Assembly (NCBI GenBank): GCA_937894085.1
Contig: CALCSG010000397.1
Span: 1-53,373, forward strand
DNA from: an uncultured Gammaproteobacteria bacterium
Lineage (GTDB): Bacteria > Pseudomonadota > Gammaproteobacteria > GCA-001735895
Direction: 5' to 3'
DNA length: 53,373 nt
The notes under the pieces: model-generated
What the model was told of the DNA's origin: nothing
What the model saw: only the letters and a program-made list of their open reading frames with translations
Databases searched by the model: none
Shown: piece by piece, positions 14,035 to 52,348 of the stretch
Layout: each line of letters starts with the position of its first letter
How positions within the stretch are numbered: the stretch's first letter is position 1
Made by a program: the position numbers and the translations under genes

Positions 14035-14036
14035 TA

Positions 14037-14069
14037 ATGATCAGGGGCCTTTGGCCCCTATCATTTTTT
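14037..14069 (+). terminator. Rho-independent terminator after exo
   Basis: ATGATCAGGGGCC-TTT-GGCCCCTATCAT followed by a T run. Confidence 0.75.
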
Positions 14070-14157
14070 ATTGCTGTTTTATATGGAGACAGTGATAAAA
14101 AGTGATACTTGAATTTTTCACTTAAACCCTTTTTAACGCATCACAGAGAGTATAGAT

Positions 14158-15240
14158 ATGAAAGAAATATACAAACTATCAACCCTGGGTCTGGGGACGC
14201 TTATCACCATTGCGGTGAGTCTCGCCTGTTCCTATTGGTTTTTTCATTCCCTTATGGGGGGTGACGGATACCAGGCTATAGGTGCTGGTATTGCCGGGTG
14301 TGCCATTCAGTTATTTGGGTATGGTTTCGCGGTAACGTATCTACCTATTAACAATGTACTTAGAGTCGGCCTGTGCATTGTTCCGCTTGGACTTTCCATG
14401 CTTTCAACATATTCTGCCTTATACGGCTACCTGTCACATGAAAAAGATACTGGTGTGATCAATACTAGAAAGCAGGAGTTGATCTTTAATATTCTTGAGC
14501 AATCCGCAGAGGATAAAAAGATTGCCTCAGCGGCCGCAGATCAAGGTGTGGGTCAGTCTTATCGAAGCCAGGCAAAAAAGTTTCTGGAGCTGAATAACAA
14601 GTCACGCGATAAAGATGAACAGCTCTTGAGTAAACTTGATAATGAACAGGAAAACAAACGAGCCGCTTCACCGCTTGATGGGCTGGTCAAGGTTACAGGA
14701 GATAGTGAATTGACGACCATTATATTCTGTGTTTGGCTGGCGATAATGTTTGATATGTTACCCGTGGTTTCAATTGGAGTTTTTTCCAGAAAAAAAGAAG
14801 AGGATCGTTATGTTATTGCGCATCATGGTGAAACATTAGCTGACAAGGAAGCGTTTGAGCATAAGCCTGTTATAAAGCAACGGAAAGATAAGTCTGAGTG
14901 GACACCACAGGAGCAACCCGTTAAAAATCCACTACCTGAAAAGAAAAAGGTATCGTCCAATAAGGACAATCATGCACCGGCAACTGCCCGAAGTACTAGC
15001 GCACCTAAAGGATATGTTAAGAAACATAATAACCTGGATGATAGCCTTATAATCAATGAAATTATGAACGGTAATATCAGACCCACTTACAAAGAAATTA
15101 TGAAATTTACAGGCTGGACAAAACACAAAACAGCACCTTTTATTAATAGATGCCTGGATCAAGGAATTCTCCAGAAAAAAGGGAACAAGTTTATTTTAGT
15201 TGAGAATGTGACCTACCTTCAACCACAGATGGCAATATGA
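14158..15240 (+). CDS. Membrane protein with a C-terminal winged-helix-like segment
   Basis: Several hydrophobic helices in the N-terminal half; C-terminal PTYKEIMKFTGWTKHKTAPFINRCLDQGILQKKGNKFILV looks like an HTH. Confidence 0.6.
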   Translation: MKEIYKLSTLGLGTLITIAVSLACSYWFFHSLMGGDGYQAIGAGIAGCAIQLFGYGFAVTYLPINNVLRVGLCIVPLGLSMLSTYSALYGYLSHEKDTGVINTRKQELIFNILEQSAEDKKIASAAADQGVGQSYRSQAKKFLELNNKSRDKDEQLLSKLDNEQENKRAASPLDGLVKVTGDSELTTIIFCVWLAIMFDMLPVVSIGVFSRKKEEDRYVIAHHGETLADKEAFEHKPVIKQRKDKSEWTPQEQPVKNPLPEKKKVSSNKDNHAPATARSTSAPKGYVKKHNNLDDSLIINEIMNGNIRPTYKEIMKFTGWTKHKTAPFINRCLDQGILQKKGNKFILVENVTYLQPQMAI

Positions 15241-15305
15241 CCGAAGCAAATTCCGAATTAGCACTCCTTCGTCAACACGGTAATAATCAGTCTTGCACTC
15301 CAACA

Positions 15306-15349
15306 AAAAGCACGGTTTTGTTCCACTGGAACGAAAAGTGAAGTAGCTG
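15306..15349 (+). repeat. 44-bp perfect direct repeat, copy 1
   Basis: AAAAGCACGGTTTTGTTCCACTGGAACGAAAAGTGAAGTAGCTG, identical to 16689-16732. Confidence 0.9.
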
Positions 15350-15437
15350 GCTTCCTAAAACAATCAGCATTTCATTAACCCTGTGGGGAAAGTCCCCATT
15401 TCAGGGGCCTTTCTCCATATAAACCTGGAGTAAGAAA
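15343..15437 (+). promoter_or_regulatory. Leader element C
   Basis: TAGCTGGCTTCCTAAAACAATCAGCA, then TGGGGA-AAG-TCCCCA and CTCC...GGAG before the ATG at 15438. Confidence 0.6.
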
Positions 15438-15833
15438 ATGATAACTACTGTTGAAAAAATAGCCTATGGCATTGCTACTGCGCAATGTTTAGTCCTGCCA
15501 GATGACTATGATGAAAAATGGTATCGGGCATATACATTTCTTTCTGATGTTATTGAGAAAGAATGTGACCCTGAAGTGTATGGCTTTTTTAAATGGGAAA
15601 ACCTGGAACACTTAACCTGGCCCAAGGTGCTGGATCACATCGAAACAGAGAAGCACTTCATTGCTAAGCAGTTCAATAAGCTTTTACTGTGTGCGAAAAA
15701 GGGCATAGTTCATTCAGCTATTGAGTGTACTCTTGATAGTGATTTGAATGCACTCGATCTGGATTTTCAGATAAAGCAGGGTGCTCAAAGAAGTGGTCTG
15801 GAGGAATGGATAAATGGAGTTCATGATGATTGA
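15438..15833 (+). CDS. Hypothetical protein
   Basis: 131-aa ORF with leader and GGAG. Confidence 0.6.
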   Translation: MITTVEKIAYGIATAQCLVLPDDYDEKWYRAYTFLSDVIEKECDPEVYGFFKWENLEHLTWPKVLDHIETEKHFIAKQFNKLLLCAKKGIVHSAIECTLDSDLNALDLDFQIKQGAQRSGLEEWINGVHDD

Positions 15834-16167
15834 TATTTATCATTTTGTTGATGGCAGGTCAGATAAGATCTGGGCTATCGATATGGACTCAACTCAACCC
15901 GGTGTTTATACAGTCTGGTATGGACGTAGAACGAATACGTTAACTACAAGACAGGTAAGCACAAATGAGCTCTTACAGAAAATACAGTCCAAACTGAATA
16001 AAGGTTATCAGCGCGTGAATGGTTCAATACATAATAATCAGTACAGACCTACTGGCATGAGTAGCGCACCTTCGCCTCCGCCTCCCCAGGTGAAAATGAA
16101 GAAGCCTGCAAAGATGATAGTTGATTTATCGAAAGTTGATTCTGATGCTACCAGTTCTTTTTTTTAG
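15814..16167 (+). CDS. Hypothetical protein
   Basis: ORF overlapping the end of the previous gene. Confidence 0.55.
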   Translation: MEFMMIDIYHFVDGRSDKIWAIDMDSTQPGVYTVWYGRRTNTLTTRQVSTNELLQKIQSKLNKGYQRVNGSIHNNQYRPTGMSSAPSPPPPQVKMKKPAKMIVDLSKVDSDATSSFF

Positions 16168-16628
16168 TGATTATGTGGAGAGATACTATGACTCAACAAT
16201 ATCACGTCGCGGTGAAAGTGAGTGATAAAGAGCAGATATATTTTGTCTTCTGGAGTTAATAATACCGTATAAATTCTAAGAGGTGCTTTGCTTATAGAAG
16301 AGTTTATATCTGGTCTAATTTCGTGGTACTGACTTGTTTGCGGTTGATGTGGCACTTTGATGTACAGCATCACCGTTTATACATAAAGAAGGATGTACTA
16401 TTTTATCTAAACTAACCAGGTATCTATGGCGAAAAAAGCTGTTGATTGAAGCTTGATTTTGTTTTTTTATAGATGGTTAACATTCTGCATTTTTAACATG
16501 CCAATGAGTGATACTTCAATGGGTGTTACTTTTGATGAAAGTGCTGAGACAAGATATGGACCAATGGTTTTTCCTTATATATCGAGTGGAAAAGCATTAA
16601 GTCAATTCTGTGATTAACTCTAAAAAAT

Positions 16629-16651
16629 ACCCCTCCGGTTATCGGAGGGGT
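16629..16651 (+). terminator. Rho-independent terminator-like hairpin
   Basis: ACCCCTCCG-GTTAT-CGGAGGGGT followed by TTATC. Confidence 0.65.
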
Positions 16652-16688
16652 TTATCTGTTTTTCAATGCGTATTATCAGTATTTATTG

Positions 16689-16732
16689 AAAAGCACGGTT
16701 TTGTTCCACTGGAACGAAAAGTGAAGTAGCTG
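16689..16732 (+). repeat. 44-bp perfect direct repeat, copy 2
   Basis: Identical to 15306-15349; contains GTTCCA-C-TGGAAC. Confidence 0.9.
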
Positions 16733-16819
16733 ACTTCCAAAAATAACCAGCAATTTATTAACCTAATCGGGGAATATCTCCCCGACTGGGAGTTTCCCTG
16801 GTACAACCAGGAGTAAAAA
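16726..16819 (+). promoter_or_regulatory. Leader element D
   Basis: TAGCTGACTTCCAAAAATAACCAGCAA, then CGGGGA-ATA-TCTCCCCG-type hairpin and CCTGG-TACAA-CCAGG overlapping the SD. Confidence 0.6.
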
Positions 16820-18352
16820 ATGTTAAATACAGCTGAACTCTATTCTGGCAAAACGGATCTAGCGGCTATTACACCACTGGATACCATATTTGCAGAATAT
16901 AGAAGTAAAAAAGATTCCATTGAAAAAATAGCAGAATTTGTTTCCGGCAACAGTGCTGTTATGAGTTATTTTTTTGATGGGGCCAGAGTAAGTAGAAACA
17001 CAGGATCTTATAGTGCTTCTACTTTCTTTGAGGTTAAACATGCTATTGCATCGTTAGATGCTGAATACTGGGCAAGAGTGATGTCAATGACAGATGTGCT
17101 CGAATCCATGCCGGCCTCTAAACGTAATGAATGGAACAAGCAGATAAGGGAGCATGAAACGCCTGAATTTTTACGTGATACGGTTCATTCAACCATGAAT
17201 GATCTATTGGTAAAAAGACAGCAATTCTTTGCAGAAAGGGTTGATGGTATCTTCAGGGCTCTCAGTGCAGAGCATCTGACTAATCGACCAGAAGGTTTTA
17301 TGAAGCGCATGATCATTAATAGGATGATGACCTATTATCAAACAGTAGATCATGACACAGCCAATTATGTTCATGATTTAAGGTCTGTGATTGGTACCTT
17401 TATGGGTCGTGAAATACCACATAGCCGTTCAACTGATTATGCAATCAGTCATATTTACGACAGTGGGGATACTGGTCAGTGGCATAGCTTCGATGGTGGT
17501 GCCTGGAAAATAAAGCTGTTTAAAAAGGGGACTGCGCATATTGATATCCACAGTTCCATGGCTTATCGACTTAACCAGGTGCTGGCCAGCATGTACCCAA
17601 CGGCTATTCCGGCTAAGTTTAAAACGCAGCCAAAACGATTCAAAGAGCATGATATTAAAATGGATTTATTGCCCTTTGCTGTGTTGGATGAGATAGGTCA
17701 CTTCCGAGAAAATGGCGACGATAGCATTACCTTTTACAGTTCTACAATTTCTAAGCAAACTGAAAGAGTATTGCGATATATTGGTGGTGAAAATACCTGG
17801 GGATCTAACTGGACTTTTGGATACCCGGTTAAGGATATTCTCCAAGATATAATCCGTACCGGGTCGTTACCGGAAAAGAAAACGCATCAGTTTTTTCAAA
17901 CCCCGGAAACACTCGCAGATCGGGTTGTTGGTATAGCTGAAATTGGAGAGAATCATTCAGTATTGGAGCCCTCTGCCGGGCACGGTGCGATTTGTAAGTT
18001 TCTACCCAAAGAGCGTTTAACCTGCATTGAGCTTGCACATTTTAATTGCCGTGTATTGCAAAAAAAGGGTTACAGTCCTATACAGGCAGATTTTCTGCAG
18101 TGGGAAAGTGATCTCAAATTCGATAGGGTGATATTAAACCCTCCCTACTCAAAAAATAGAGCTCTGGATCACCTGAAGAAAGCCCACCAGTATTTAGCAA
18201 ATGACGGGAGGCTTGTGGCTATTCTGCCGGCCTCAATGAAAGAAAAAGAGTTCTTTCCTGACTTAACGCATGAGTGGTCGGAAGTTTTGTCGAATGAGTT
18301 CAGGGAAAGCGGAACCGGAGTCAATGTAGTCATACTGACTTTGTATCGCTAG
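16820..18352 (+). CDS. DUF4942-like protein with N6-adenine methyltransferase-type domain
   Basis: VLEPSAGHGAICKFL (SAM motif I), RVILNPPYSKNRALDHLKKAHQYL (NPPY motif). Confidence 0.8.
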   Translation: MLNTAELYSGKTDLAAITPLDTIFAEYRSKKDSIEKIAEFVSGNSAVMSYFFDGARVSRNTGSYSASTFFEVKHAIASLDAEYWARVMSMTDVLESMPASKRNEWNKQIREHETPEFLRDTVHSTMNDLLVKRQQFFAERVDGIFRALSAEHLTNRPEGFMKRMIINRMMTYYQTVDHDTANYVHDLRSVIGTFMGREIPHSRSTDYAISHIYDSGDTGQWHSFDGGAWKIKLFKKGTAHIDIHSSMAYRLNQVLASMYPTAIPAKFKTQPKRFKEHDIKMDLLPFAVLDEIGHFRENGDDSITFYSSTISKQTERVLRYIGGENTWGSNWTFGYPVKDILQDIIRTGSLPEKKTHQFFQTPETLADRVVGIAEIGENHSVLEPSAGHGAICKFLPKERLTCIELAHFNCRVLQKKGYSPIQADFLQWESDLKFDRVILNPPYSKNRALDHLKKAHQYLANDGRLVAILPASMKEKEFFPDLTHEWSEVLSNEFRESGTGVNVVILTLYR

Positions 18353-18440
18353 AACATAAGCAGGCAAGTAAGGTATGCCATTACCGTATTTCAAAAGATG
18401 AACTGGGTAACAGGAATATTTTGATTGGCGTAGAAACAGA

Positions 18441-18470
18441 AAACCCCGGTGTAAAAGCACCGGGGTTTTT
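18441..18470 (+). terminator. Rho-independent terminator
   Basis: AAACCCCGGTG-TAAAAG-CACCGGGGTTTTT. Confidence 0.85.
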
Positions 18471-18544
18471 GTCTGTAAATCGGTTGGTATTCCCTGATTT
18501 ATTGTCTTAATAACCAGTCAAAGTTGATCAGCAGATGGGTTTAT

Positions 18545-19051
18545 CTAGGTTGGTGATGAATCTTCGCCGCATAGAGCAAGAATTTCCTGACACAATTGAG
18601 GTGATATTCGATAACCATTACTTCGAAGAATTTCCAGTACTGGAGCAACTGAATTAATAACTCCTTTCTGCTTCATCTTTATGAAAATTGCACCTGTGCC
18701 TCTGGGTGTAATACCTCTGCTTTTAGCAACGCGACGCCCCTTTTTCCCATTAATAATGATGTCGACTCCTAATTCTCCTGCTAATGCCAGTGCTTCAGCC
18801 TCTCCTGGGCCGAGCAATTTTGTAAGCGCCTTTAGTGCTTGCTTGTCATTCGTTTTCTTGCGTTTGATGAAGCCAGTCAAAAGTGCTTCTTTAATTTCAG
18901 GTGCTCCTGGCCTCGAAAGATCGCACAACACTTCATGCTCGACTGCGGGAGGGATATAGATAAACCGAAATAGAGTTTCTAGTTGAGGCAGTAAACCGGA
19001 CGTCCCCAACGCAATGAGCGGCCCGGCATCACTGACAACGATATCATTCAC
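18545..19051 (-). CDS. DUF3368/PIN-like toxin
   Basis: VVSDAGPLIALGTSGLLPQLETLF...GPGEAEALALAGEL...INGKKGRRVAKSRGI; overlaps the upstream antitoxin gene. Confidence 0.75.
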   Translation of the reverse strand: MNDIVVSDAGPLIALGTSGLLPQLETLFRFIYIPPAVEHEVLCDLSRPGAPEIKEALLTGFIKRKKTNDKQALKALTKLLGPGEAEALALAGELGVDIIINGKKGRRVAKSRGITPRGTGAIFIKMKQKGVINSVAPVLEILRSNGYRISPQLCQEILALCGEDSSPT

Positions 19052-19370
19052 CTAGACCCTCCAGGTCCTCTAACAGTTCCTCTTTAGATTGATCTACCAC
19101 AACCACATCCAGGGCGGCCAGTTTTTCCATAAATGCAGCCATTGACATCTTAGCCACCCTTGACGCTTTGGATAGAGTCAGCACGCCGTCCTCAAACAAT
19201 TTGACTGCGATATCCACATGCACACCTTCTTCTAAAAGATAATCATCAAATGGAACAGATAGCGACATTGGCTCACTTCTGTTTGTTAGAAGAACGACTT
19301 CTCCTGATTGTGCAGATTTATTGAGTACGCCAGGATTTTCTCTCAAAGCTCTCACACCGACCGTTTTCAT
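19044..19370 (-). CDS. Antitoxin: Phd/YefM-like N-terminus with UPF0175-like C-terminus
   Basis: MKTVGVRALRENPGVLNKSAQSGEVVLLTNRSEPMSLSVPFDDYL followed by AVKLFEDGVLTLSKASRVAKMSMAAFMEKLAALDV. Confidence 0.7.
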   Translation of the reverse strand: MKTVGVRALRENPGVLNKSAQSGEVVLLTNRSEPMSLSVPFDDYLLEEGVHVDIAVKLFEDGVLTLSKASRVAKMSMAAFMEKLAALDVVVVDQSKEELLEDLEGLGE

Positions 19371-20196
19371 AATGGAAATCTCGATTTAATGTACCCCTAA
19401 ATGATAGCGCAATAAAGTCGGCATTAAAGCTGCAATCCTCAGATTACAGTTATTTATTAAATAACGAACTGCACTATGGTAATGATGGGTATCGAAGGAA
19501 GCTGTTATTCCGTTCTATATTTTCTAGACTAAATATACGATTACATTGAACCTGGATATTCTATTTAAAGTCAGTTTTCATTCAGTAAATGGCGATATAA
19601 ATTTTTTGTAGGGGAGATCTTACAAAATAAATCAGATATAACTGATGTTTTTAAACCAGTTACTAATAAGAATGGCATGGTTTAGTTGAAATTTATCAGT
19701 TTAGTCTCAGGTTTGTTTCGGATCAAAGCTGATTGGAGTTATTAATATTGATTGGAAATGAAGCATGGGTAGGGAAGCTATGAGCTAAATAGCAGTCATT
19801 CGTAGGGTGATACCCGAACTTCCGAAGTATGGACTTAGTTGCCATAGCTGGTTATTCATTCATATTAAAAACATGCATTATTCCTGCAATTGATCACAGC
19901 TTTAACCAAAGAAAGTGGTCTCATTGAAAGCGGACGTTAAATCGATTTAAAAGGGTAATCTTTATTTTAAAAATGGTAATCATGTCTATACTTAAAAGCA
20001 CAGTGATCAATGATATGGCAATTTTCTGAGCAAGGCTGTATCGTCAGTCAACCCTTTTTGAAGCTCTCAACTGGTGAGATCGAAATGTATAGGCCATAGG
20101 CCGACTGTTTGCAGTTGAGTGCCCTGAGTACTCGGCATGATCAACAGTCAAATCTTCAAAAGTTGAACATAAAATTGAAATAAGAACTTATAAACA

Positions 20197-23100
20197 ATGG
20201 ATTACAACCCTTTAACACAAGAATTTAATCGTCTCTCCGGAATTCTGAATAGAAAAAAAGAAGAAAAAAGAAAACTTTATGATGGACTCAAGTGGTTTGA
20301 TTCTAATGATATAGGAAGTCTATTTTCATCGCTAGAAAGTAAGGAGAATTCTAAAAGAAAGTTACTGTCACTAATAGAAGAAATTAAAATAGAAGTAGAC
20401 ATATTAAATAAAAAGATTCAGGAGACAAAGGTCCATACTAAATCTCAATTAAATCCTTTCAATTGGTTTGATGATGAGCAAAATTCCTTCCGTAAAAAAC
20501 TTAAGGAATTGAATAATGAACTAAATACGAAACAAGATTATTTGGCAATGCGAAGAAAAGCGTTATCAGGATCAAAAGATCTTATTAGTAAAGTTAGTGC
20601 AGATATTGATAAGTATAAGACTTTTGAAAGACAAAGGGTAGTTGATGAAATAGATGGGTTATCCCGAGAATTAGCATTAATTGGAGAGGAGTTTAAAGAA
20701 GTATCTAAATTAAAAAACAATGTAGATGCTGAGTTGGCACCGATCTTGAAGCAGATAAAAAATTACAAATCTATGCTTTCTTCAGCAAAAAAGAAAATAA
20801 GTGATGCAGAGTCATTTGAATTGGACTTGGATCTTGCTGCCAATTCCTATGAGAAGGCAATGATTCACCAGGAATGTGAAGATGACTTAGGTGAAGGCAA
20901 ACCAAAAAATATTATAAGAAAACATGAAAGGATTGCCATAAAAATTGAGAAGGATATTGGGCAAGCGGAAAAAAGAGTTATCCAAATTGGAAAAAAAGCC
21001 GAGCAATTTCTAATGAGGCGCCTTAATTCAAAAAAGACCAATGACACCTCTCCCAAAAATGAATATAGCAATAAAAATAATGAACCAATATCAGAGCCAT
21101 TTAATAAATCCCAGCAAAAAGAAAAGGATAATACAGTGAATATCTATCTTGATTTCGAAAAAAACGAGGATGATAACGAGGATAAACATGGCAGGGTTTA
21201 TCCCGGATTGCGTTCACAGTTAGAGAATCTTCGTCGAAGTCATGGCAATACACTTTTCCCGGATTCACCACCAGGAGAAGACATACTATCCACATTTGTG
21301 GATACATTTTTTCCGGAAGGAGTTACCCAGTCATATTTTATTTGCAATATTAGCCTGAAAGCTGATGAGCCTTTACTTTCAATCAGGCCGCAGATTATTG
21401 GCCCCAGGCTTGAACGGTTACTACCCAGAGGTAGATCGTTAGCGGTATTTGGAAAGCTTATCGATAACCAGCGGGACAACGATAACCCGGTGTTTATGGT
21501 GCGACGAATCGTCGATTTGTCACATTCTGAAGCAAGGCCTTTTGAGCATTCGATTTCTGGTTTAGTTTTTAGCCAGTCCCAGAACGTTTATCCAGGTTTC
21601 AAACGTGAGGAAAACGCTTTATCGAGTGAGTTTATCTTTCAGCTTCCATCTATTTCAATTGAAACAAAAAAACGTCTGAAGGATTGGCGGGCATATCTAG
21701 ACTGGAGGGAGCGACTTGTGCGAGCGCGCCTCGTCGGGCTGAGATACCTTAAAGTTGAAATGCTGGAAGATGGTCGTGTTCGTTTTCTAACGGCCTGTGA
21801 GTCTAAATCAAGCTTTGACCAGGTCCGCAAGACGCTGCGCAGTGACGGACTGAATGCTTATGACCTCAACTATTCACTGGACCCCTGGCAGTTTGATTAC
21901 AACGGCAGGCATCGTGGGCGTGGTACAGAGTTGGGTGATTTTGTCAGTCAGAAAGATGTGCGTAAACCGAGCGATATCGATACCACTGGAATGCCATGGG
22001 ATGAGCCCTATTTTATGTACATTCACTTCCGGCTTCCGGAGGATGCCCAGAATGAGTTTGATGGCATTCTGAATGGCGGTGGAGCCTTTGATGATGCTGC
22101 CAGGCAGTATATTAAAGGTGTTCATCAAACTGGTTTTTTAACCTTATCTGTCGTAGGTGATATATCACTCATTGATCGTCAGCGTAAGGAACTGGTTTTA
22201 CTGCAAAATGAATCTGGTTATGCACCATTTCTTTCGTCATATCTATTCAACATTAAGGCGGCAAATGAACCATCGGAACTCAAACAGATAGGCGATAATC
22301 AATGGCTTCAGTCCAGTCTCAATGATGACCAGCGGCTTGCTGTAAGAAAAATGATCAGCACTCCTGACCTTGCAATGGTGCAGGGCCCGCCTGGAACGGG
22401 TAAGACCACGATGATTGCCGAAGCCTGCTGGCAGTTTGTCCAGGAGGGCAAGAAAGTGCTAATCGTCTCTCAGGCCAGTCTGGCTGTCAATAACGCGTTA
22501 GAGCGGCTGGCAAAAATACCAGCAATACGTGCTATCCGGTTGAGTCGACGTGAAAGGAAGAATGAACGAGAACATCCCTACAGCCAGGAGCACGCACTGG
22601 AAACCTATTATGGAAGTATTGCTATCGCTTGCGAGAGTCGCACACTGGATGTCTGGACCAGTGCTGACGAGCGTTTAAATGGCTTGAACGATTGGATTTC
22701 ATCAGTAGATCTGGTTTCTAGTGATGTAAATTCTTTACGTTTAAAAACTAACGAAATGACGCAGCAACGTACAGCCTTGAAAGCAGAATTGAAACGCCTT
22801 CATGAGTCTGATGAGTATGCCAGGAACATCGAACAAATGCGGCAGGAGGTGGCGGGATTTCGGGCATTTATCGAAGGCGCCGATTCTTTTAGCGGAACAA
22901 TTCCTGATCAGTTGCTGAGAATTGTTTATGACCGAATAATCCTTGCGCTGAATCGATTAACCGAAGTCGGTATCCGGGCGAATAAATTGTGGATACAATT
23001 TGAATACGGCTCCGCATTAGAACGTACACATTTTACAGTCGATGCTTTGCTGAACTGGCGGAAGGTAATTGCTTTCAAGGCACAGATTAATGGCGACCGA

Positions 23101-25077
23101 GAGAGATTGAAAACTACAGAAGGCGATACTGTCCTCTCACCGGAATCTGCTATACGTTTAGCGGAATTGCAACGCAATCTTGAAGCTACTGAAAAGGCTA
23201 TGATAGAAGATGCCAGTAAGGTATCTGAGTGGCGAGCTCTTCAAAAAGAGATTCGTGAAGTTAAACGCCAGGGCGCAGGGCTAGACAGGGGCACCTACGC
23301 TCGCCTGTTCAATGTATCCGAGAATAAATCGCTTCCGGTTTTGACCGATCCGGGAAGCACCCGCGCCCGAGTCATTGATGTGCTGGATCAAACCTATGCC
23401 TTAATTTCGGAAATTGAAAGCATGATCGAACATGGCCTGGATGACCTCCATAAAGAGCTGGATAGTTTTGTTGGGAACCTGCCAGGTGTAGAAGTCGATA
23501 TAGATGAATTGCGGCGAATCGAGGGAGAGCTACGTCACCTGATGGAACGCCAGAAGGAAGCTTCATTTGAACTCTCTGATAAGGAAAAGCGCTTAAAGGA
23601 CATCCTCCAAAAACAACCTGGAAAAAAACCATCGGTCATCCTGGAGCTCGCAGATCTCCCTGAACTGCGAAAAACTGCTGAGAGCGAACGCAGTTCATTA
23701 TCAGCCACTCTCGATCAGAGCAGGGCCTTCCGCGAAACGTGGGGAGATCTGATTCAACAGTGGGCATCAGACCTTAGAAATTCTGAAACCATAAAGTGTG
23801 ATCAGGACAACTTTTTTTCGAATTACATCAATGCGTGTAATGTAGTTGGTGTGACCTGTACCGAAAATAGACGTACCCTCGAAGATGCAGGGCACACCTG
23901 GTTTGATGCGGTAATCGTGGATGAGGTAAGCAAAGCAACTCCAACAGAAATCATCATGCCTTTGATGATGGGTAGGACGGCGATCCTGGTTGGAGACCAT
24001 CGGCAATTGCCACCTCTTTTTAAGGAGCAGGAAGGATCCTGGGAAGAGGCCATTGCCGACCAAGAGGAATCGTCCGATGAAGACCAGAATACGGATAGCG
24101 AACTGAACGCTGAAAACTTCGAGCGTTTTAAAAAAATGGTCACTTCGTCACTCTTCAAAGAGCACTTTGAAAATGGCCCTGATAGCCTTAAGTCATTCCT
24201 GTTTACACAGTACCGGATGCATCCACAGATTATGCGGGTGGTGAACCAGTTTTATGAAAACAGGCTTCAATGCGGATTGTCAGATCCCGACGGCCAGGTG
24301 CCGGGTTCTGATCCAGGCGGACACCGTATTCATGGTTTAACCCTGAATGGCGAGAAATCTCAACAATATGTTGTTCCCGAACGGCATGTGGCCTGGCTTG
24401 ATTCAACCCTGGACCCTCACCACAAGCCTCACCACGAACGCCGTGATTTGGGTACCAGCAAGGTCAATGAACTCGAGTGCATCTTGATCGCAAGGGCTTT
24501 ATGCGATATCGAAATGTCATGCAGAGAACAGGGGTTTGGATCAAAGGGTAAGCCACGAAAGCAAGTGGGTGTTATTACCTTCTATGGACGCCAGGTGCGA
24601 GCGATACGTGAAGCAATAAATCGTATTCAGTCGACGCGTAAAATTCACTTTAATGCCATCGAATACGACATCAACACGGTAGATAGATATCAAGGACAGG
24701 AGCGACCGATTATTATAGTTAGCATGGTAAGAAACCCAACATTCAAGCTTTCTCAAAGGGCTAATACGGCCCAGTTTGAGAGAATCAACGTTGCATTTTC
24801 AAGGGCTCAAGAACTTTTAATAGTAGCAGGAGCAAAGGATGTTTTCTGCCAATATCCAGTTTTCCTTCCTCACCTTGACCGGCCTGGAAAGCGTAAAGTT
24901 GAAGTGTATCGGCATATCATCGATGAGATTCAACGCAACGGCGGTCTGTGGTCATCCGACTATATCGTATCTGCACATGAGTACGACGGACTTCTTCCCA
25001 AAGGATTTCCCAGGCAGTCATCAAATCATCGTTTCAATCAGAAAAACAATCATCGCAAAGGAAAAAGTAGATTATGA
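20197..25077 (+). CDS. Large SF1 (UPF1/DNA2-like) helicase with N-terminal coiled coil
   Basis: GPPGTGKTTMIAEA, VIVDEVSKATPTEI, GDHRQLPP, TQYRMHPQIM, TVDRYQGQERPIIIVS, ERINVAFSRAQELLIVAG; charged coiled-coil N-terminus of about 300 aa. Confidence 0.92.
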   Translation: MDYNPLTQEFNRLSGILNRKKEEKRKLYDGLKWFDSNDIGSLFSSLESKENSKRKLLSLIEEIKIEVDILNKKIQETKVHTKSQLNPFNWFDDEQNSFRKKLKELNNELNTKQDYLAMRRKALSGSKDLISKVSADIDKYKTFERQRVVDEIDGLSRELALIGEEFKEVSKLKNNVDAELAPILKQIKNYKSMLSSAKKKISDAESFELDLDLAANSYEKAMIHQECEDDLGEGKPKNIIRKHERIAIKIEKDIGQAEKRVIQIGKKAEQFLMRRLNSKKTNDTSPKNEYSNKNNEPISEPFNKSQQKEKDNTVNIYLDFEKNEDDNEDKHGRVYPGLRSQLENLRRSHGNTLFPDSPPGEDILSTFVDTFFPEGVTQSYFICNISLKADEPLLSIRPQIIGPRLERLLPRGRSLAVFGKLIDNQRDNDNPVFMVRRIVDLSHSEARPFEHSISGLVFSQSQNVYPGFKREENALSSEFIFQLPSISIETKKRLKDWRAYLDWRERLVRARLVGLRYLKVEMLEDGRVRFLTACESKSSFDQVRKTLRSDGLNAYDLNYSLDPWQFDYNGRHRGRGTELGDFVSQKDVRKPSDIDTTGMPWDEPYFMYIHFRLPEDAQNEFDGILNGGGAFDDAARQYIKGVHQTGFLTLSVVGDISLIDRQRKELVLLQNESGYAPFLSSYLFNIKAANEPSELKQIGDNQWLQSSLNDDQRLAVRKMISTPDLAMVQGPPGTGKTTMIAEACWQFVQEGKKVLIVSQASLAVNNALERLAKIPAIRAIRLSRRERKNEREHPYSQEHALETYYGSIAIACESRTLDVWTSADERLNGLNDWISSVDLVSSDVNSLRLKTNEMTQQRTALKAELKRLHESDEYARNIEQMRQEVAGFRAFIEGADSFSGTIPDQLLRIVYDRIILALNRLTEVGIRANKLWIQFEYGSALERTHFTVDALLNWRKVIAFKAQINGDRERLKTTEGDTVLSPESAIRLAELQRNLEATEKAMIEDASKVSEWRALQKEIREVKRQGAGLDRGTYARLFNVSENKSLPVLTDPGSTRARVIDVLDQTYALISEIESMIEHGLDDLHKELDSFVGNLPGVEVDIDELRRIEGELRHLMERQKEASFELSDKEKRLKDILQKQPGKKPSVILELADLPELRKTAESERSSLSATLDQSRAFRETWGDLIQQWASDLRNSETIKCDQDNFFSNYINACNVVGVTCTENRRTLEDAGHTWFDAVIVDEVSKATPTEIIMPLMMGRTAILVGDHRQLPPLFKEQEGSWEEAIADQEESSDEDQNTDSELNAENFERFKKMVTSSLFKEHFENGPDSLKSFLFTQYRMHPQIMRVVNQFYENRLQCGLSDPDGQVPGSDPGGHRIHGLTLNGEKSQQYVVPERHVAWLDSTLDPHHKPHHERRDLGTSKVNELECILIARALCDIEMSCREQGFGSKGKPRKQVGVITFYGRQVRAIREAINRIQSTRKIHFNAIEYDINTVDRYQGQERPIIIVSMVRNPTFKLSQRANTAQFERINVAFSRAQELLIVAGAKDVFCQYPVFLPHLDRPGKRKVEVYRHIIDEIQRNGGLWSSDYIVSAHEYDGLLPKGFPRQSSNHRFNQKNNHRKGKSRL

Positions 25078-27533
25078 AATTGATTGATATCCGTATTGGA
25101 TCACCACTTCTTAAGATTGAAACGCGTATCTTTCATGCCACACCTCGAAAACCGACCGCCTTTGAACGAGTCATACTTTCAATGACTGACAGGTTGGGGA
25201 ATAACATAACCTTTAACAGTATTCCGCTAGCCAATCTTTTTATTGATGTCCTATGTGTGGTTGATCCAGGCCCACTGATCACACCCACATTATCAGAACT
25301 TATATCCTTGGATGTAATCCGATGTATGGGGGATATTGAATCTCCGGAGACTTTAATGCTTCGAGATATTGAGATGACTGAGCGTGGCAAGAGTATGTTT
25401 GCGGAAGATATGCTGCCAGCCAAATCAATGCAAAACGATGAGACGTTTTACTATGATCCAATTCAGCAACGGCTACTTTCTGAGTCTCAATCCAAAGCAT
25501 ATCGTCCTACTGCTCCTAAGTTATCTATCGATGCTACGGTATTCGAAGATATATTCCCGGAGGAACATATTCGTTCTCGCATTCACGGTCCGGGTTATCG
25601 TTGGAAAAGTGCAGCTACCATTATCGAAAGGCTCGAATCGCAATCTGTTACAGTTCTATGGAAAGATACGCCAAGCTCCATTGAGCTCCGGTCAGGAAAG
25701 CTGAGTATTGATTCAGTCGACGATAATCTCAGCTCCTATATCAGTTTACTTGACAGTGAAGAGTCCTATAATCGTTTTATCGGGGCTGTATTCGATACTG
25801 ACGATTTTGAGTTAGAAGACGAAATACCGATTATTGATATCGAAAGTATGAGCTCTACCACCTTTGAAATTCTTCCGGTATCGCAAGCTCTATCAGAATG
25901 GCCTGAAGATGCAAAGTTCATTATGCCTGGGTTTAAGCATGATGATAATGCTGTGACCATGCAAGCACCGCCACATCAGGCAATTATTTTATACGCCAAA
26001 AACGAAGATAGTGATGAGATTTTCTTTAAATGGAATGAGGAACGGAATGGTTGCAAGATCAAAGTCAATGGTAATTATCCTTTACCAGCAAGCCTGCGAG
26101 TTACAAACCAGGAGGATCTTCGTTGCTACAGAGTTCAGGCAAAAGATGGAAAGGCTTCTCGACAATTACTTGTGGCGTGTCGTGTAAAAATAAGCCCGAA
26201 AGATGATTTTTTAAGAAAGCATCTCGATAATCTCTCAGCTCTTGTTTACAAAAAAGCGAGGGAAGATGATTTAAAAGCAGCAGTACTTTGGGAAGGTGAA
26301 TCACAGTACCGTACGAACTTTCTAAACCGGTTAATGGCATTAAATTTACCTTTAGACGAAGTCGTCAGCAGCTTTTATTCCGCACTTGCCGATGTGGAAC
26401 ACATATATGGAAGTCTTAATCGTAATGCCTGGGCTGAATCCTTGTGGTCGATTCTGGATCAAAGCATCTCCGGTTATGATACAAATGAAATTGAGGCCTG
26501 CAGAAAACTGTTTCAGCTCATAGCAAAACATGGGCCTCATGCCGAAAAATTTATCTCTAAACTACTTCAGTCTATCGTTCAACGTACACAACCGCCTAAA
26601 ACTCTAAATGCGTTGAATGAAATCAGGTCTTTATTCCATATTCTTAACCCGAAATGGTCATCAGACTTTCCATCCCGTCTTTACACCGCCCAGTTGATAA
26701 GGTCTATCCTGGAAAGCTTTCCGGATGATCTTGATACCAATTTAATCATCGATGAAAACGACTTTTTCCGTCCGCTTGCATCACTTTCTAAACTCTACGC
26801 GAACATATCAGTTAGTGTTGGAGATAGGAGGATAGAAGAACTCAATGATGATGATTATGTTAGCCTAGTGAATTCCAAATCTGTTTCCAAATTGGCAGAC
26901 CTGTCTCATGCGTGGACAACGGAAATGAATGCCTTGCTAGAGGTGCTTGAAGACAACGCTGTTCTTGAAGGAACTCAACTTGCTTTGATCGATACCAAGA
27001 TTGCAGAGATTGCCAGGCGGACGGCAAAATTAATCGGAACTCTTGATTCTGTAATACAATCAGTATATGTCTTTGATACGTCGGCGCTCATTGCACAACC
27101 ACAAATCGTCTCGAGCATTCGACCTAATGAAATGTTTGTAGTAACAAAACGTGTAATCGATGAGCTTGACGACAAGAAGTTAGATGAATCACTGCGTCCA
27201 AGTGTGTCCGAAGCTGTACGCAATCTGCGGAGGATCAGGAAAGATCAGATCCAGTTCTGCGATGGCGATATGTCGCTCCTTCCATCAGATTATAGACTTA
27301 AAGGTGATAATTTAATTCTTTCGGTTGCTGTGCGTTATCGAAAGTTCAAGCCAGTCCTGATTACAAACGATAACAATTTGTCTCTAAAGGCTCAGGCTGA
27401 AGGTATAGCATCAATGACATCAGATGAGTTTGCAAAACATGTCAGTGAAAAAAAAGGTGCGAAAAGACCAGACTTAAACCAGCAAAAAAAGAATCATAAT
27501 TACAATAAATCTTCAAAAAGGAGGAGTAAATAA
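25074..27533 (+). CDS. Large protein with C-terminal PIN nuclease domain
   Basis: C-terminal VYVFDTSALI...VVTKRVIDELDDKKL...KGDNLILSVAVRYRK...VLITNDNNLSLKAQAEGI carries a full acidic PIN set; ATGA overlap with the helicase gene. Confidence 0.85.
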   Translation: MKLIDIRIGSPLLKIETRIFHATPRKPTAFERVILSMTDRLGNNITFNSIPLANLFIDVLCVVDPGPLITPTLSELISLDVIRCMGDIESPETLMLRDIEMTERGKSMFAEDMLPAKSMQNDETFYYDPIQQRLLSESQSKAYRPTAPKLSIDATVFEDIFPEEHIRSRIHGPGYRWKSAATIIERLESQSVTVLWKDTPSSIELRSGKLSIDSVDDNLSSYISLLDSEESYNRFIGAVFDTDDFELEDEIPIIDIESMSSTTFEILPVSQALSEWPEDAKFIMPGFKHDDNAVTMQAPPHQAIILYAKNEDSDEIFFKWNEERNGCKIKVNGNYPLPASLRVTNQEDLRCYRVQAKDGKASRQLLVACRVKISPKDDFLRKHLDNLSALVYKKAREDDLKAAVLWEGESQYRTNFLNRLMALNLPLDEVVSSFYSALADVEHIYGSLNRNAWAESLWSILDQSISGYDTNEIEACRKLFQLIAKHGPHAEKFISKLLQSIVQRTQPPKTLNALNEIRSLFHILNPKWSSDFPSRLYTAQLIRSILESFPDDLDTNLIIDENDFFRPLASLSKLYANISVSVGDRRIEELNDDDYVSLVNSKSVSKLADLSHAWTTEMNALLEVLEDNAVLEGTQLALIDTKIAEIARRTAKLIGTLDSVIQSVYVFDTSALIAQPQIVSSIRPNEMFVVTKRVIDELDDKKLDESLRPSVSEAVRNLRRIRKDQIQFCDGDMSLLPSDYRLKGDNLILSVAVRYRKFKPVLITNDNNLSLKAQAEGIASMTSDEFAKHVSEKKGAKRPDLNQQKKNHNYNKSSKRRSK

Positions 27534-28678
27534 TGAGCTTTCACGTTGAATCAGAGTGGAAAATTCAGAAGGAAAAAAGACGACAAGCATATTTGGATCG
27601 TATTCACGAAAATGTGACACAGTTTCGTGATCGCTATTATGAGCGATTCGAAGGCCTCGTAAATCAAGGTTTCGAACAATACATGGCAAATGAATTTGCA
27701 GATCTTAGGGCTGAATTGAAACGTCTTGATCGATTAATTTCTTCTGATCCGGAACGGGCTCGTGACCTGAGTTTTGAAGTAGGCCGGCAACTTAGTCAAC
27801 TATCAGGACTGGCGAGGGCTGCAAGACACGAATTCAAAGCTCGTGATCGTCAGCAGCGTAAGGAACTTGCAGAAATGCGGCATCAGGCTACTACATCTCT
27901 CGCTCAATTTATTCATGAAATGATCTCCCAAATCAAGGATCCTGTTGAGTTAGACTTTGCATATGATGAAGTGAAGTCCATCCAACAAGCGTTTCAGGGG
28001 CGTACTATTGAAGCGGAGGAATTGTCAAATTTAAAAAACACGCTCAACTCCCAATTTTCGGAGCTTCGAAAATCTGCTCAAGCCAGAGCGCTAGCTTGGA
28101 AACAGGAGAAAACAAGAGCAACCTCCATGGAGGCAACGGAAACACTTTTAGACATGTTTAAAGAGCAAGCAACTGCTGATGCCAGTCAAAGTCCTAAAGC
28201 ACTCGAAGAGATGATGGCGAACCTCGAGTCAGTAAGGGATCAAATCAGCTCATCAAGTTCTCACGAAGAAATTGGTAATAAAATTTTTGAGTTGGCGAAA
28301 ACTGCGGATAACTCAGTTACTGATGAAAAATGTCGCCGTATGGCAGTTCGTTCAATTATGGACTCGTTGGAAAAATCCGGTTTCGTAGTTTCAAAACCCA
28401 GGCGTGGCAGCAGTGAAATAGATGAAGTTGTCATACTCGCCCGCAAGCCTGCCGGAGCTGAAGCCACATTCAGGATAACAGCAGACGGTAGCATGATATA
28501 CAAGTTTGATCACTATGAAGGTATGCAGTGCAAAGATGACATTGATAAGGTTCTTCCAATGCTGCAAGAAATCTACGGAATAAATCTGTCAAATGAACGG
28601 GTATTGTGGAAAAACCCTGAGAGAATATCCAGGTCTGCTAAACCACTGGATGATAATAAAGGGCATAAGAATGGCTAA
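27533..28678 (+). CDS. Coiled-coil protein with a compact C-terminal domain
   Basis: Long charged helical stretch, then RMAVRSIMDSLEKSGFVVSKPRR...VVILARKPAGAEATFRITADGSMIYKFDHYEGMQC; TAATG overlap with the previous gene. Confidence 0.75.
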   Translation: MSFHVESEWKIQKEKRRQAYLDRIHENVTQFRDRYYERFEGLVNQGFEQYMANEFADLRAELKRLDRLISSDPERARDLSFEVGRQLSQLSGLARAARHEFKARDRQQRKELAEMRHQATTSLAQFIHEMISQIKDPVELDFAYDEVKSIQQAFQGRTIEAEELSNLKNTLNSQFSELRKSAQARALAWKQEKTRATSMEATETLLDMFKEQATADASQSPKALEEMMANLESVRDQISSSSSHEEIGNKIFELAKTADNSVTDEKCRRMAVRSIMDSLEKSGFVVSKPRRGSSEIDEVVILARKPAGAEATFRITADGSMIYKFDHYEGMQCKDDIDKVLPMLQEIYGINLSNERVLWKNPERISRSAKPLDDNKGHKNG

Positions 28679-30539
28679 AGACAATGAGAATGCCTGGCTG
28701 GATAACCTGAAGCGTCAGGTCGGCATAAGACGTGGAATAATTCTACATGGTGATGTACTGGATGTGTGTTATGACGTTGGCAGCACAACCTATCAGCCAA
28801 TTTTAGATGTTGTTTTACGTACCCTGAAAGAGCGCGGCTTTCAGCATGTTGTAGTATGGGATCGCTTTTCTGGCGTTGAAAATATCTCAAGTGATAAATG
28901 GGCATCATTGGTCAAGGAGGCAACTTTTGGTTCTTCCCCGCAAGATGTTGAATCAGGTGACGATTATGATGTTGGACCGCGTGATACTCAGGCAGACACC
29001 AGTCAGGGTGTAGTACTGCCCAATGCAGATGATTTCCTTGCCGTCGTATACCACCATATGCTCAACATGAAGAAGGAGCGTGTGGCATTTATCCTTGATT
29101 GGTCGAATTATCTTTTTGGGAATGCAAACGCCTTGTCGGAACAAGAGCGGCAATGGCTATTAATTATATCCAAAGCGATCCGCAATGCACCGGTGCCTCT
29201 CGATGACGCAGAAGGTCTTTCAAAGCCAACGAACATTGTCGTACTTCTTTGTAAAAGACTTGGTTCGATCCCACCCTCGCTCTACCAGGCGAATCCTTCT
29301 ATTCAAGAAATTATTGTATCCTCTCCAGGTCGTGTGGAACGGGAACATTTCCTCAAAAGAAACATCGACAAATGGTTGCTTCGTTCTACGCCAAAGCCTG
29401 GCGAAATGGCATTTAATGATTTCGTTGATGCACTCGAAGGCATGTCGCTAAGAGATTTACAGCAGCTTATTCGACTTTCTCGACAGGTTCCCGGTGACCC
29501 ACTCACTTCTGAGCGCCTAATCAACCTGTACCGTTATGGTGAGCAAAAAAGCCCGTGGGAAGATCTTAGCAGATCGAAACTGGCTACAATTCGCGATACC
29601 CTTAAGAAACGAGTAAAAGGGCAGGAGGATGCCGTCGACAAAGTGTCCGGGGTCATTATTCGAGCGTTTACCGGGCTATCAGGGCTTCAGCATTCTAAAA
29701 AACAGAGGATGCCAAAGGGTACTCTCTTTTTTGTCGGGCCGACCGGTGTTGGCAAGACGGAATTGGCTAAAGCTCTTGCTCAGTTTTTATTTGGAGACGA
29801 GGATGCCTGCATTCGCTTTGATATGTCCGAATTTAATCACGAACACAGCGATCAGCGACTTGTTGGAGCTCCTCCTGGCTATGTTGGATACGAGGAAGGA
29901 GGGCAACTCACTAATGCTGTCAAAAAGAAGCCTTTCTCTGTTCTTCTTTTTGATGAGATTGAAAAGGCTCATGTGCGTATCCTTGATAAGTTTCTCCAGA
30001 TTCTTGAAGATGGAAGATTAACTGACGGGAAAGGAGAGACTGTTAATTTTTCTGAAACCGTTATTATCTTTACTTCGAATATTGGTGCTTCAGAAGTCGA
30101 ACTCCAGGATGATAAAGATTCTGTTCGGCAACAATTTATGGAAAAGGTTCGCGAACACTTTGTATCTGTTGCGAAACGTCCTGAACTATTGAACCGCATC
30201 GGTGACAATATCGTACCGTTCAACTTCATCACAGACGACGATTTTCTCGTCTCAATAGCTCGCGCCAAACTACAGCCCCTGCGTGAACGGCTCAAAGAAA
30301 AATACCGCATAACGGACCTGTCATTTGATGATGAAGAAAAAGCGCTGCTCGCACTTTCCAGGGGGGTGGATCGTCAAATGGGAGGGCGTGGCGTCCTTAA
30401 TGAGATTGTTAAACAAATCATCGATCCGTTGGCCGATTTCTTGTTCGAGGAAGAGGAAGATCCAGCTCATTACTCAGGGCGATTTATCGCAGTGCACCAG
30501 GCCGGAAACGAAGCAACTTTTGCATTCGAGGTGAAATAG
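28671..30539 (+). CDS. ClpA/B-like AAA+ protein with a degenerate N-terminal ATPase-like module
   Basis: ATG at 28671 overlaps the upstream stop. GQEDAVDKVSGVIIRA...FVGPTGVGKTELAKALA...RFDMSEFNHEHSDQRLVGAPPGYVGYEEGGQLTNAVKKKPFSVLLFDEIEKAH (ClpB second-module motifs). Confidence 0.9.
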   Translation: MAKDNENAWLDNLKRQVGIRRGIILHGDVLDVCYDVGSTTYQPILDVVLRTLKERGFQHVVVWDRFSGVENISSDKWASLVKEATFGSSPQDVESGDDYDVGPRDTQADTSQGVVLPNADDFLAVVYHHMLNMKKERVAFILDWSNYLFGNANALSEQERQWLLIISKAIRNAPVPLDDAEGLSKPTNIVVLLCKRLGSIPPSLYQANPSIQEIIVSSPGRVEREHFLKRNIDKWLLRSTPKPGEMAFNDFVDALEGMSLRDLQQLIRLSRQVPGDPLTSERLINLYRYGEQKSPWEDLSRSKLATIRDTLKKRVKGQEDAVDKVSGVIIRAFTGLSGLQHSKKQRMPKGTLFFVGPTGVGKTELAKALAQFLFGDEDACIRFDMSEFNHEHSDQRLVGAPPGYVGYEEGGQLTNAVKKKPFSVLLFDEIEKAHVRILDKFLQILEDGRLTDGKGETVNFSETVIIFTSNIGASEVELQDDKDSVRQQFMEKVREHFVSVAKRPELLNRIGDNIVPFNFITDDDFLVSIARAKLQPLRERLKEKYRITDLSFDDEEKALLALSRGVDRQMGGRGVLNEIVKQIIDPLADFLFEEEEDPAHYSGRFIAVHQAGNEATFAFEVK

Positions 30540-30541
30540 GC

Positions 30542-31126
30542 ATGGCTAAACTAAATCTAGCGAACTGGATCGACAGCACCGAAGTAGAAGGCCCTGGAAA
30601 ACGCTTTGCGCTTTGGGTACAAGGATGTTTGCTAAAATGCCCTGAGTGCTGTAACCCCCACATGTTCGATATTGCTCCACGTACTATAGTTGAAACCAGG
30701 GAAGTTCTGACGTGGATTGCTAATTCAAAATATGAACACTCAATTAAAGGTGTTACTTTTCTAGGTGGTGAGCCAATGCTACAGGCCAGAGGCCTTTCTG
30801 AAATTGCGCAAGGTTGTAAAGAAATGGGTTTGTCAGTTGTTGTCTTTTCAGGCTATACGCTCGAATACCTAAGAAAGAATCCTTTGCTAGGAGTATCAGA
30901 GTTACTCGAATTCACAGATATTTTAGTCGACGGACCTTTTATTTCGGAAAAGCCTGAGCACAATAGAAATTGGGTTGGGTCTACAAATCAACATCTTCAC
31001 TTCTTGTCAAACTATTACGAAAAAGGAATTGAATTCGATAAAAAATATTCAAATGGGATTGAGTTACGTATATTTGAGAATGGGATTATGTCTACAAATG
31101 GTTGGCCATCAAGTATTGATCTTTAA
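30542..31126 (+). CDS. Radical SAM protein, NrdG (anaerobic RNR activase)-like
   Basis: FALWVQGCLLKCPECCNPHMFD (CxxxCxxC), GVTFLGGEPMLQARGL (GGEP), SGYTLEYL, DILVDGPF. Confidence 0.88.
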   Translation: MAKLNLANWIDSTEVEGPGKRFALWVQGCLLKCPECCNPHMFDIAPRTIVETREVLTWIANSKYEHSIKGVTFLGGEPMLQARGLSEIAQGCKEMGLSVVVFSGYTLEYLRKNPLLGVSELLEFTDILVDGPFISEKPEHNRNWVGSTNQHLHFLSNYYEKGIEFDKKYSNGIELRIFENGIMSTNGWPSSIDL

Positions 31127-32124
31127 GTAATGACTCCAGAAAAAGCTCATGTCAGTTTGTTATCAATAGGTGCTATAAACCTCTATTACATTTAATGATG
31201 TTTAGATTTTACTAAAATAAGTGAAAAATAATTTACACAATGTAATCAAAAAATCGAATGCCTGCTTTATCTTCACATACCAAAAATAAATTGTATTTTT
31301 GATGATGAAAATGACATCATGACCTGAAATATAAGGAGAATGCTAATGGCTCCTATCGCCACGAACCCGACGCACCCTACAGCCTGTAAGGAATGACCGC
31401 TATGAGTAGATAGCAGTTATAAGTAATCAAAGAAATTAATTTAAAAAGTAAATTATAGATATTTTTAATATTTATTTTTTCATCGAGATTTTATGTAGTA
31501 CTTGTCACCTGATCCCATTCTGGAGCCATTGCGCCAATGATAAACGCGATAACTTCGACGCTAGACAGATATTTCAATAGTACCGTCATAGCCATAGGAA
31601 TCATCGTCAGCAATTTTATCTGGTTCATCATTCCAGGCTGATGTGGATGGGTTTGTTAATCTGGTGAAGAGATTTTCCATGAACCGCAATCACTTCCTGT
31701 AGTATCGTGGAGTGAATCAAGTTGTCACTTTCCTGTCGCACGGATTTTAATTCTTTTTTGAGATCAAATACGGAGACGTTCCACGGTATCCATCCGGCAC
31801 CAAGTAGTGGAATGGCTCTCAATTCAAGGGTCAGATCATTCCCAGATTCCAGATCTGATTGCTCTCAAAGGTCATCTGTCTGGGCAAGCCGCAACGCTTG
31901 TCCCGAACTCTAACCGGCAGTGTTTTGATGACAGTTTTAACCAGAGCTTTATTTTACCACAATAGAGAATATATCGAGAAGACCAAGACTTCTATACTGC
32001 GCTATCCATCCTCGACCTGAAGTGACTATGCTTTTCGCAATTTTTTGGTAAATTGATTACTATCCAGAAAATAGAGTTAAAAAGTTCCGTGTTATAGATA
32101 TTAGTATGGTAGGATTAATCATGG

Positions 32125-32150
32125 TAGCTGGCCATATAAACAGCATATTC
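32125..32150 (+). promoter_or_regulatory. Orphan leader stem-loop (no gene directly downstream)
   Basis: TAGCTGGCCATATAAACAGCATATT; no plausible CDS before the next leader at 32299. Confidence 0.5.
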
Positions 32151-32298
32151 AATGAGTTGCCAACCCAAAGGCATCGCCTACGCTCGACTTCAGGATGTTT
32201 AACGTCCTAAATATCCCTTAAATACCAATATGCAGATACTTGCGCCTGGAAATCAGGCCTGGATAGAATTTTCGTCGAATTATTCGACAAAAATAAGG

Positions 32299-32394
32299 TA
32301 GCTGGCCTTTTAAAATTAACCAGCATTCACCCCATGGGGCATATTAGCCCCGTAGGACTGGTGTGCTCCTTTTTTAACTTAGAAGGAGAAAATA
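32299..32394 (+). promoter_or_regulatory. Leader element E
   Basis: TAGCTGGCCTTTTAAAATTAACCAGCA, then ATGGGGC-ATATTA-GCCCCGT, then CTCCTT...AAGGAG before the ATG at 32395. Confidence 0.65.
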
Positions 32395-43154: not shown

Positions 43155-43351
43155 GTTTATGAACAGAAAACAAACCTTGATCAAACTAGGCGCAGAGACT
43201 GGCAGAACATCGCGGTAGTACGTTTTGTGATTGGCCTTCTGTTGAAGGGTATGCCTATCAGCTATCATAGTTGCTTTCTTACCCGGTTACTTCCGTATTG
43301 ACACAGGTTTTTAACCTTGCAAAATTGAATGACTGGTGCAAGAATGCAAGG

Positions 43352-51502: not shown

Positions 51503-51562
51503 TGGTACCCGGTACTTGAGAGTTCGATAGTTCCATAGAAAAATTACAAAGAGATAGAAAAA

Positions 51563-52246: not shown

Positions 52247-52348
52247 TGTCACTATTTTAGTGAGCATATTGATATTTATCATTTTGCAAACCATATTATT
52301 TTGTAACTGTATATCTCATTATTATCTTTTGATCAGTTATATATCGCT

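Follow-up and report, generated by a model that had tools for sequence, protein, structure and literature searches.

The window, which is the whole stretch of 53,373 nucleotides analysed here from an uncultured gammaproteobacterium, carries five genes (A to E) that we read, with a probability of about 0.5, as one mobile conflict system. This system would most likely act against phages or plasmids, with an RNA-cutting A-B part under the control of C, D, and E. The conflict reading draws on six divergent cassettes with the same gene order, unrelated flanks and invariant catalytic residues, and on relatives of A-B that lie in or beside BREX, type I restriction-modification, and Qat genes.

An initial annotation had described five overlapping plus-strand genes at 20197-31126, and all five open reading frames were found at those coordinates (Table 1), with gene junctions of -4, -1, -8, and +2 nt. 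Its domain calls hold against Pfam, namely an SF1 helicase, a PIN domain, a coiled-coil protein without a family, a ClpB-like AAA+ protein, and a radical SAM protein. We placed the start of gene D at 28671, as that annotation had implied, and not at the longest-ORF start of 28593, because an AAAGGG ribosome-binding site lies upstream of 28671 only and the homologues begin there.

Table 1. Positions of the operon, its relatives, and further features of the window
Feature	Position	Strand	Remarks
Cargo region	14035..32394		contains the operon; flanked by the genes for the lambda-type exonuclease and DUF3150 in an IncA/C-like conjugative backbone
DUF3368 and UPF0175 pair	18545-19370	-	toxin-antitoxin-like; just upstream of the operon, opposite strand
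Gene A	20197..25077	+	1626 aa; UPF1/DNA2-like SF1 helicase
Gene B	25074..27533	+	819 aa; C-terminal PIN nuclease
Gene C	27533..28678	+	381 aa; coiled-coil protein
Gene D	28671..30539	+	ClpB/ClpC-like double-AAA+ protein
Gene E	30542..31126	+	194 aa; NrdG-like radical SAM protein
Other cassette loci			plasmids: Polaromonas (L002), Acinetobacter (L003), Moellerella (L004), Photobacterium (L005), Leisingera (L090)
Two-gene pair L105			adjoins hsdR and toxin-antitoxin genes; partner with PLD effector
Two-gene pair L106			partner with PLD effector
Two-gene pair L107	7137-13885		inside a BREX operon; partner with DarT effector
Two-gene pair L108			beside qatC; no effector recognised
Two-gene pair L109			no effector recognised
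MSGP(K) protein, L007	20736-22094
MSGP(K) protein, L013	12689-14041
MSGP(K) protein, L017	18707-20023
MSGP(K) protein, L015	494-1717
MSGP(K) protein, L011	8114-9427
ARPP-1 fusion gene	2747-5377	-	window
MerR-receiver fusion gene	6229-6960	-	window
AAA_14/DUF4143 gene	43271-44557	+	window
Cadherin/Ig repeat gene	45238-48426	+	window; 1062 aa
Ribonucleotide reductase region	49349-53233	+	window

A tblastn search with D found complete A-B-C-D-E cassettes on five unrelated plasmids, which answers a check proposed with the initial annotation, whether the five genes occur together in other genomes. Gene order and strand are identical in all six cassette loci (the window and the five plasmids), and the genes overlap or nearly abut in most of them. 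Pairwise protein identities among the cassettes are 25-45% for A, 16-28% for B, which diverges fast, 27-42% for C, 43-64% for D, and 41-60% for E; the catalytic residues of A, B, D, and E are invariant in the six. The flanks are unrelated, with three weak matches in common across the loci, indicating that the A-E block travels as a unit. The five genes could also be neighbours by chance or form two operons, with A-B as a complete helicase-effector system and C-D-E as an unrelated stress module, and the two halves do occur apart, as A-B-like pairs alone and as D-E with other partners. However, the full order and strand are kept in six loci whose replicons are unrelated, and most of the genes there overlap or nearly abut (random order and strand would give this arrangement with a chance of about 4e-17 in a crude calculation). 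In searches of plasmids and genomes, neither B nor C was seen outside the complete cassette. We regard both of these alternatives as very unlikely.

The cassette is rare and plasmid-associated. C occurs on ten plasmid records, all within the five cassette lineages. When the C profile was run on 369 genomes of the same class and 398 of the same phylum, the window's own C stood alone among the matches listed; the two samples overlap, make up about 770 Pseudomonadota genome searches, and could let distant C proteins escape. No C was found in phages by tblastn, and viral contigs searched with C and E gave no relatives. The A-B-C-D-E set was not seen in Escherichia coli, where the D matches were of the ClpB type and B had none, in a blastn search that is insensitive at such divergence.

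The operon lies within an IncA/C-like conjugative backbone. The order of traN, a CbbQ-like AAA gene, bet, the exonuclease gene, the DUF3150 gene, and a VWA gene is common to the IncA plasmid pRA1 and the window, but the gap between the exonuclease and DUF3150 genes is 199 bp in pRA1 and 18,360 bp in the window. Because these 18,360 bp separate genes that are adjacent in pRA1, the operon is cargo in a mobile-element core, and the comparison confirms what the initial annotation had claimed. The 18.4-kb cargo region contains the operon, a DUF4942/methyltransferase gene, and the toxin-antitoxin-like DUF3368/UPF0175 pair, in agreement with the toxin-antitoxin neighbour that had been proposed.

Gene A matches the Pfam SF1 helicase families AAA_11 and AAA_12 (1e-33 and 1e-36), and its motifs QGPPGTGKT, DEVSKATP, GDHRQLPP, and NVAxSRA are invariant in the six cassettes. 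Its N-terminus is an SMC-like coiled-coil extension. About 500 mostly helical residues separate its Walker A motif from the DExx box, and this spacing is 395-519 aa over the cassettes, with poorly conserved, helix-like sequence. In CnuH and its relatives, which are UPF1-like helicases, a large helical insertion follows Walker A, and the next gene downstream encodes a protein in which an elongated wHTH is joined to a nuclease effector that varies (PMC11090510). The effectors named in the text of that paper are HEPN, Vsr, and PLD; PIN is not among them (PMC11090510).

B consists of an N-terminal domain (about 1-135), a fast-evolving middle part, and a PIN domain at 665-782, which belongs to PIN_4 (8e-16, Pfam) and has the residues D668, E697, D745, and D766 invariant in the six cassettes. 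From its sequence pattern and the literature, the N-terminal domain is a putative winged helix; a structure model of it built from one sequence had a pLDDT of 31 and was discarded. The nearest plasmid relatives of A outside the cassettes are the helicases of the two-gene pairs L105-L109, with A profile scores of 195-485 bits. The N-terminal 135 residues of B align to the partner proteins of L105-L107 with an hhalign probability of 93.5% (2e-7; controls 0.1%), and the block 'LT..GK.F....lP......yDP' is common to both, suggesting remote homology. The pairs resemble A-B in the helicase and, for L105-L107, in this N-terminal relationship, but they have no C, D, or E, and their effectors differ. 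In the pair inside the BREX operon, from Nostoc sp. C052, the helicase and DarT genes are followed by an ADP-ribosylglycohydrolase gene, whose product could reverse the DarT modification. We call A-B cnuHE-like, by comparison with the published account of CnuH and CnuE, as a description of architecture that homology supports but does not prove.

The RNA-cutting reading relies on the cnuHE architecture, which is predicted to act on RNA (PMC11090510), and on SMG6/EST1A as the closest solved structure to the B PIN_4 domain. We rejected descent from SMG6, i.e. an 'SMG6-like' B, because proteins of PhoH2 size (about 470 aa), which are common in genomes, score higher with the B PIN domain than SMG6 does; SMG6 is therefore just the closest solved structure. 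The UPF1/DNA2-like family also includes DNA enzymes, so RNA is no more than the probable target of A-B. DNA can also be the substrate of PLD and DarT relatives. In a restriction-like system directed at DNA, A would be a DNA2-like motor on single-stranded DNA and B a structure-specific PIN nuclease of DNA, with C-D-E as control. This would agree with the PDB profile matches of A, among which DNA2 and SMUBP2 rank best and above UPF1, with the restriction-type MTES_1575 nuclease carried by other helicases linked to D-E, and with the use of DarT, of a DNA ADP-ribosyltransferase family, by a relative of A-B. It is rather unlikely, however, as the PIN_4 clade (SMG6 and the PhoH2-size proteins) is associated with RNA and the cassette has no methyltransferase to mark self DNA.

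C is a coiled-coil protein that matched no Pfam or PDB family. It has 43 invariant columns over the six cassettes, the majority of them in a conserved domain at its C-terminus (about 258-362).

D matches Pfam AAA_2 and ClpB D2-small (1e-53 and 1e-7), confirming the ClpB-like assignment, and its AlphaFold model (pLDDT 74) is aligned by Foldseek with both AAA rings of ClpC and ClpB. In AAA domain 1 (about 1-290), which matches VCP-like AAA (4e-9), Walker A is lost and a strand like 'LHGNVxDL' stands in its place, indicating a dead or degenerate first ATPase domain. Domain 2 (about 310-620) is of the ClpB type and, judging from the conserved GPTGVGKTE, LLFDEIEKAH, and pore loop GYVG, is predicted to be active. 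The ClpB disaggregase has two active AAA domains and the N- and M-domains, whereas D has only one with an intact motif set and lacks both the N-domain and the M-domain; it scores 299.5 bits on the NCBIfam ClpB model against a cut-off of 1232.

These features bear on a role in quality control instead of defence, in which an RNA surveillance like nonsense-mediated decay (NMD) and an unfoldase acting on proteins that have stalled or aggregated would serve plasmid fitness or stress tolerance. UPF1 and SMG6 are core effectors of eukaryotic NMD, which the helicase-PIN pair resembles; ClpB-type motors handle aggregates, and stress responses commonly involve AAA+ motors and radical SAM enzymes. Nevertheless, the rare, plasmid-borne distribution, the fast divergence of B (16-28% identity), and the relatives in or beside defence genes fit conflict better, and D is unlike disaggregases in its missing N- and M-domains and its dead first ATPase domain. 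We consider a quality-control role unlikely and return to the conflict reading below.

The radical SAM call of the initial annotation was confirmed for E and narrowed to an NrdG-like protein (Fer4_12, 2e-32 in Pfam). Its score on NrdG TIGR02491, 94.5 bits, is under the equivalog cut-off of 126.1. NrdG, the class III RNR activase, functions with NrdD; E is not adjacent to NrdD, and the host NrdD lies on another contig (C348). The CxxxCxxC motif is invariant in 14/14 relatives of E, GGEP and GSxNQ are conserved, and in the six cassettes an extra Cys follows the cluster motif, CxxxCxxC(C). The motif and the matching fold family place E in the radical SAM superfamily. A glycyl-radical motif in A-D was considered as the substrate of E and rejected; none is conserved in A-C, and the RL[VI]GA of D is the ClpB pore region.

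Full-length D with an adjacent E was also found with other partners in Rhizobium, Bradyrhizobium, Burkholderia, Sphingomonas, Gallionella, Aristaeella, and Gaiellasilicea loci. As a genome-wide probe D is swamped by ordinary ClpB, and the full-length D family was carried by L006-L017 only. The Rhizobium, Bradyrhizobium, Burkholderia, Sphingomonas, and Aristaeella loci resemble the cassette in having a full-length D (about 32-37% identity), an adjacent NrdG-like E, and an SF1 helicase with a nuclease. They differ in that the helicase is distant from A, with A profile scores of 41-56 bits against 195-485 in the two-gene pairs, and in the 'MSGPK' coiled-coil protein at the place of C. In the first four of these genera, kinase-DUF4011-helicase-REase proteins are present; in Rhizobium the third gene encodes a kinase, DUF4011, an SF1 helicase, and an MTES_1575 nuclease in one protein. 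Aristaeella has ProA/Hhe-like DUF4011 helicases. The 'MSGPK' proteins were rejected as homologues of C (hhalign probability 0.7%). They belong to a coiled-coil family starting with MSGP(K), without a Pfam family, that accompanies D in distant loci (Table 1). At the chromosomal loci L099, L100, and L102, D has no adjacent E, and E-like proteins are encoded elsewhere in those genomes; the pairing of D and E is thus frequent but not obligatory. In Pseudomonas aeruginosa, the flanks of cDHS1 contain DUF4011 and radical SAM genes (PMC10250203), and we suspect that they are linked to the D-E core.

D-E is shown by these loci to be a separable core that is re-used with other helicases. That it is joined to two distantly related helicase-nuclease modules is our main reason for interpreting D-E as the control part and A-B as the effector. 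More tentatively, D and E may form a control core, not named before, that has recruited two or more such modules of distant kinship; the RNA-cutting effector would then be licensed by the unfoldase ring together with a post-translational modification by the radical SAM protein, or with a ligand made by radical chemistry.

In the mechanism that we propose for the conflict system, A would track along single-stranded nucleic acid, probably RNA, and carry B, whose N-terminal domain would dock on the helical insertion of A and whose PIN domain, as the effector, would cut RNA. D may assemble into a hexamer whose first ring is inactive and whose second ring, of the ClpB type, is active, and C and D would hold or remodel the A-B complex as a sensor or licensing switch. 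By means of a 5'-deoxyadenosyl radical, E would either modify one of the components or make a ligand for the complex, thereby setting the threshold of the complex. The nuclease would be set free upon infection or abnormal translation.

As the initial annotation had supposed, the five-gene set has no name or description in PADLOC, NCBIfam, or the open-access literature (subscription papers and preprint servers lay outside the scope). Its view of A-E as novel stands to this extent, but A-B is no isolated novelty, as it resembles the helicase-effector module described as cnuHE for CoCoNuTs, here with a PIN domain. Type II and III CoCoNuTs are like the cassette in having an SF1 helicase of the UPF1-like type in which, as in A, Walker A is followed by a large helical insertion, and in a coiled-coil partner with an AAA+ ring protein. 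B, with its C-terminal PIN nuclease and its kinship to the L105-L107 partners, may correspond to the downstream CoCoNuT protein, which has a wHTH-like N-terminus and a C-terminal nuclease. The McrB-type GTPase (CnuB) of the CoCoNuTs, however, is absent from the cassette, whose sole AAA+ protein is ClpB-like and scores 16.8 bits on the NCBIfam McrB model against a cut-off of 637; none of A-E has a McrBC Pfam match that would point to McrC/CnuC. There is no TerY-P triad either, and the cassette has a PIN effector, a ClpB-like AAA+ protein, and an NrdG-like radical SAM protein instead. PADLOC gave a partial match of the A helicase to Mokosh MkoA (338 bits), which covers the SF1 motor, and AAA matches to D. 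The Mokosh matches (MkoA/MkoC) are confined to helicase motors, no PLD domain was detected, and the partners are different. As the PADLOC matches are just partial, no catalogued defence system fits. The vWA-MoxR/VMAP ternary conflict systems differ in that A-E has no vWA domain, and the MoxR domain scores 12.5 bits on D against a cut-off of 27. The pairing of a UPF1-family helicase with a nuclease of the PIN_4 family (SMG6) is like that in eukaryotic NMD, but this is an analogy only, from a separate evolutionary context and with no counterparts of UPF2/UPF3, SMG1, or SMG5/7 recognised.

We regard the cassette as a variant of the helicase-effector conflict systems, whose control core may be new in kind. 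If the inference holds, plasmid defence would pair a UPF1-like helicase with a PIN_4 nuclease as eukaryotic NMD does, and a PIN effector and a ClpB-like/NrdG-like control module would join the helicase-effector systems. E would also be a first testable glycyl-radical-activase-like enzyme that works without an evident glycyl-radical enzyme. The control-core reading of D-E, if true, would mean control of bacterial immunity by radical chemistry, and the presence of this core in several phyla could help to annotate many unexplained loci.

Other genes of the window deserve a brief description. The gap from traN to the CbbQ-like AAA gene has an inserted GC-rich patch (0.53-0.59) with a gene for a three-domain fusion of ARPP-1, an ADP-ribosylglycohydrolase, and a calcineurin phosphoesterase; the gene beside it encodes a protein that joins a MerR-type HTH with the receiver domain of a response regulator. 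The AAA_14/DUF4143 protein matches the PADLOC candidate PDC-S01 with 316 bits. The protein with cadherin/Ig repeats has a glycoside hydrolase 130/32-like end and is unusual cargo for a conjugative element. In the last region, the gene for a ribonucleotide reductase large chain precedes those for a TSCPD-domain protein and a dioxygenase of the TauD family.
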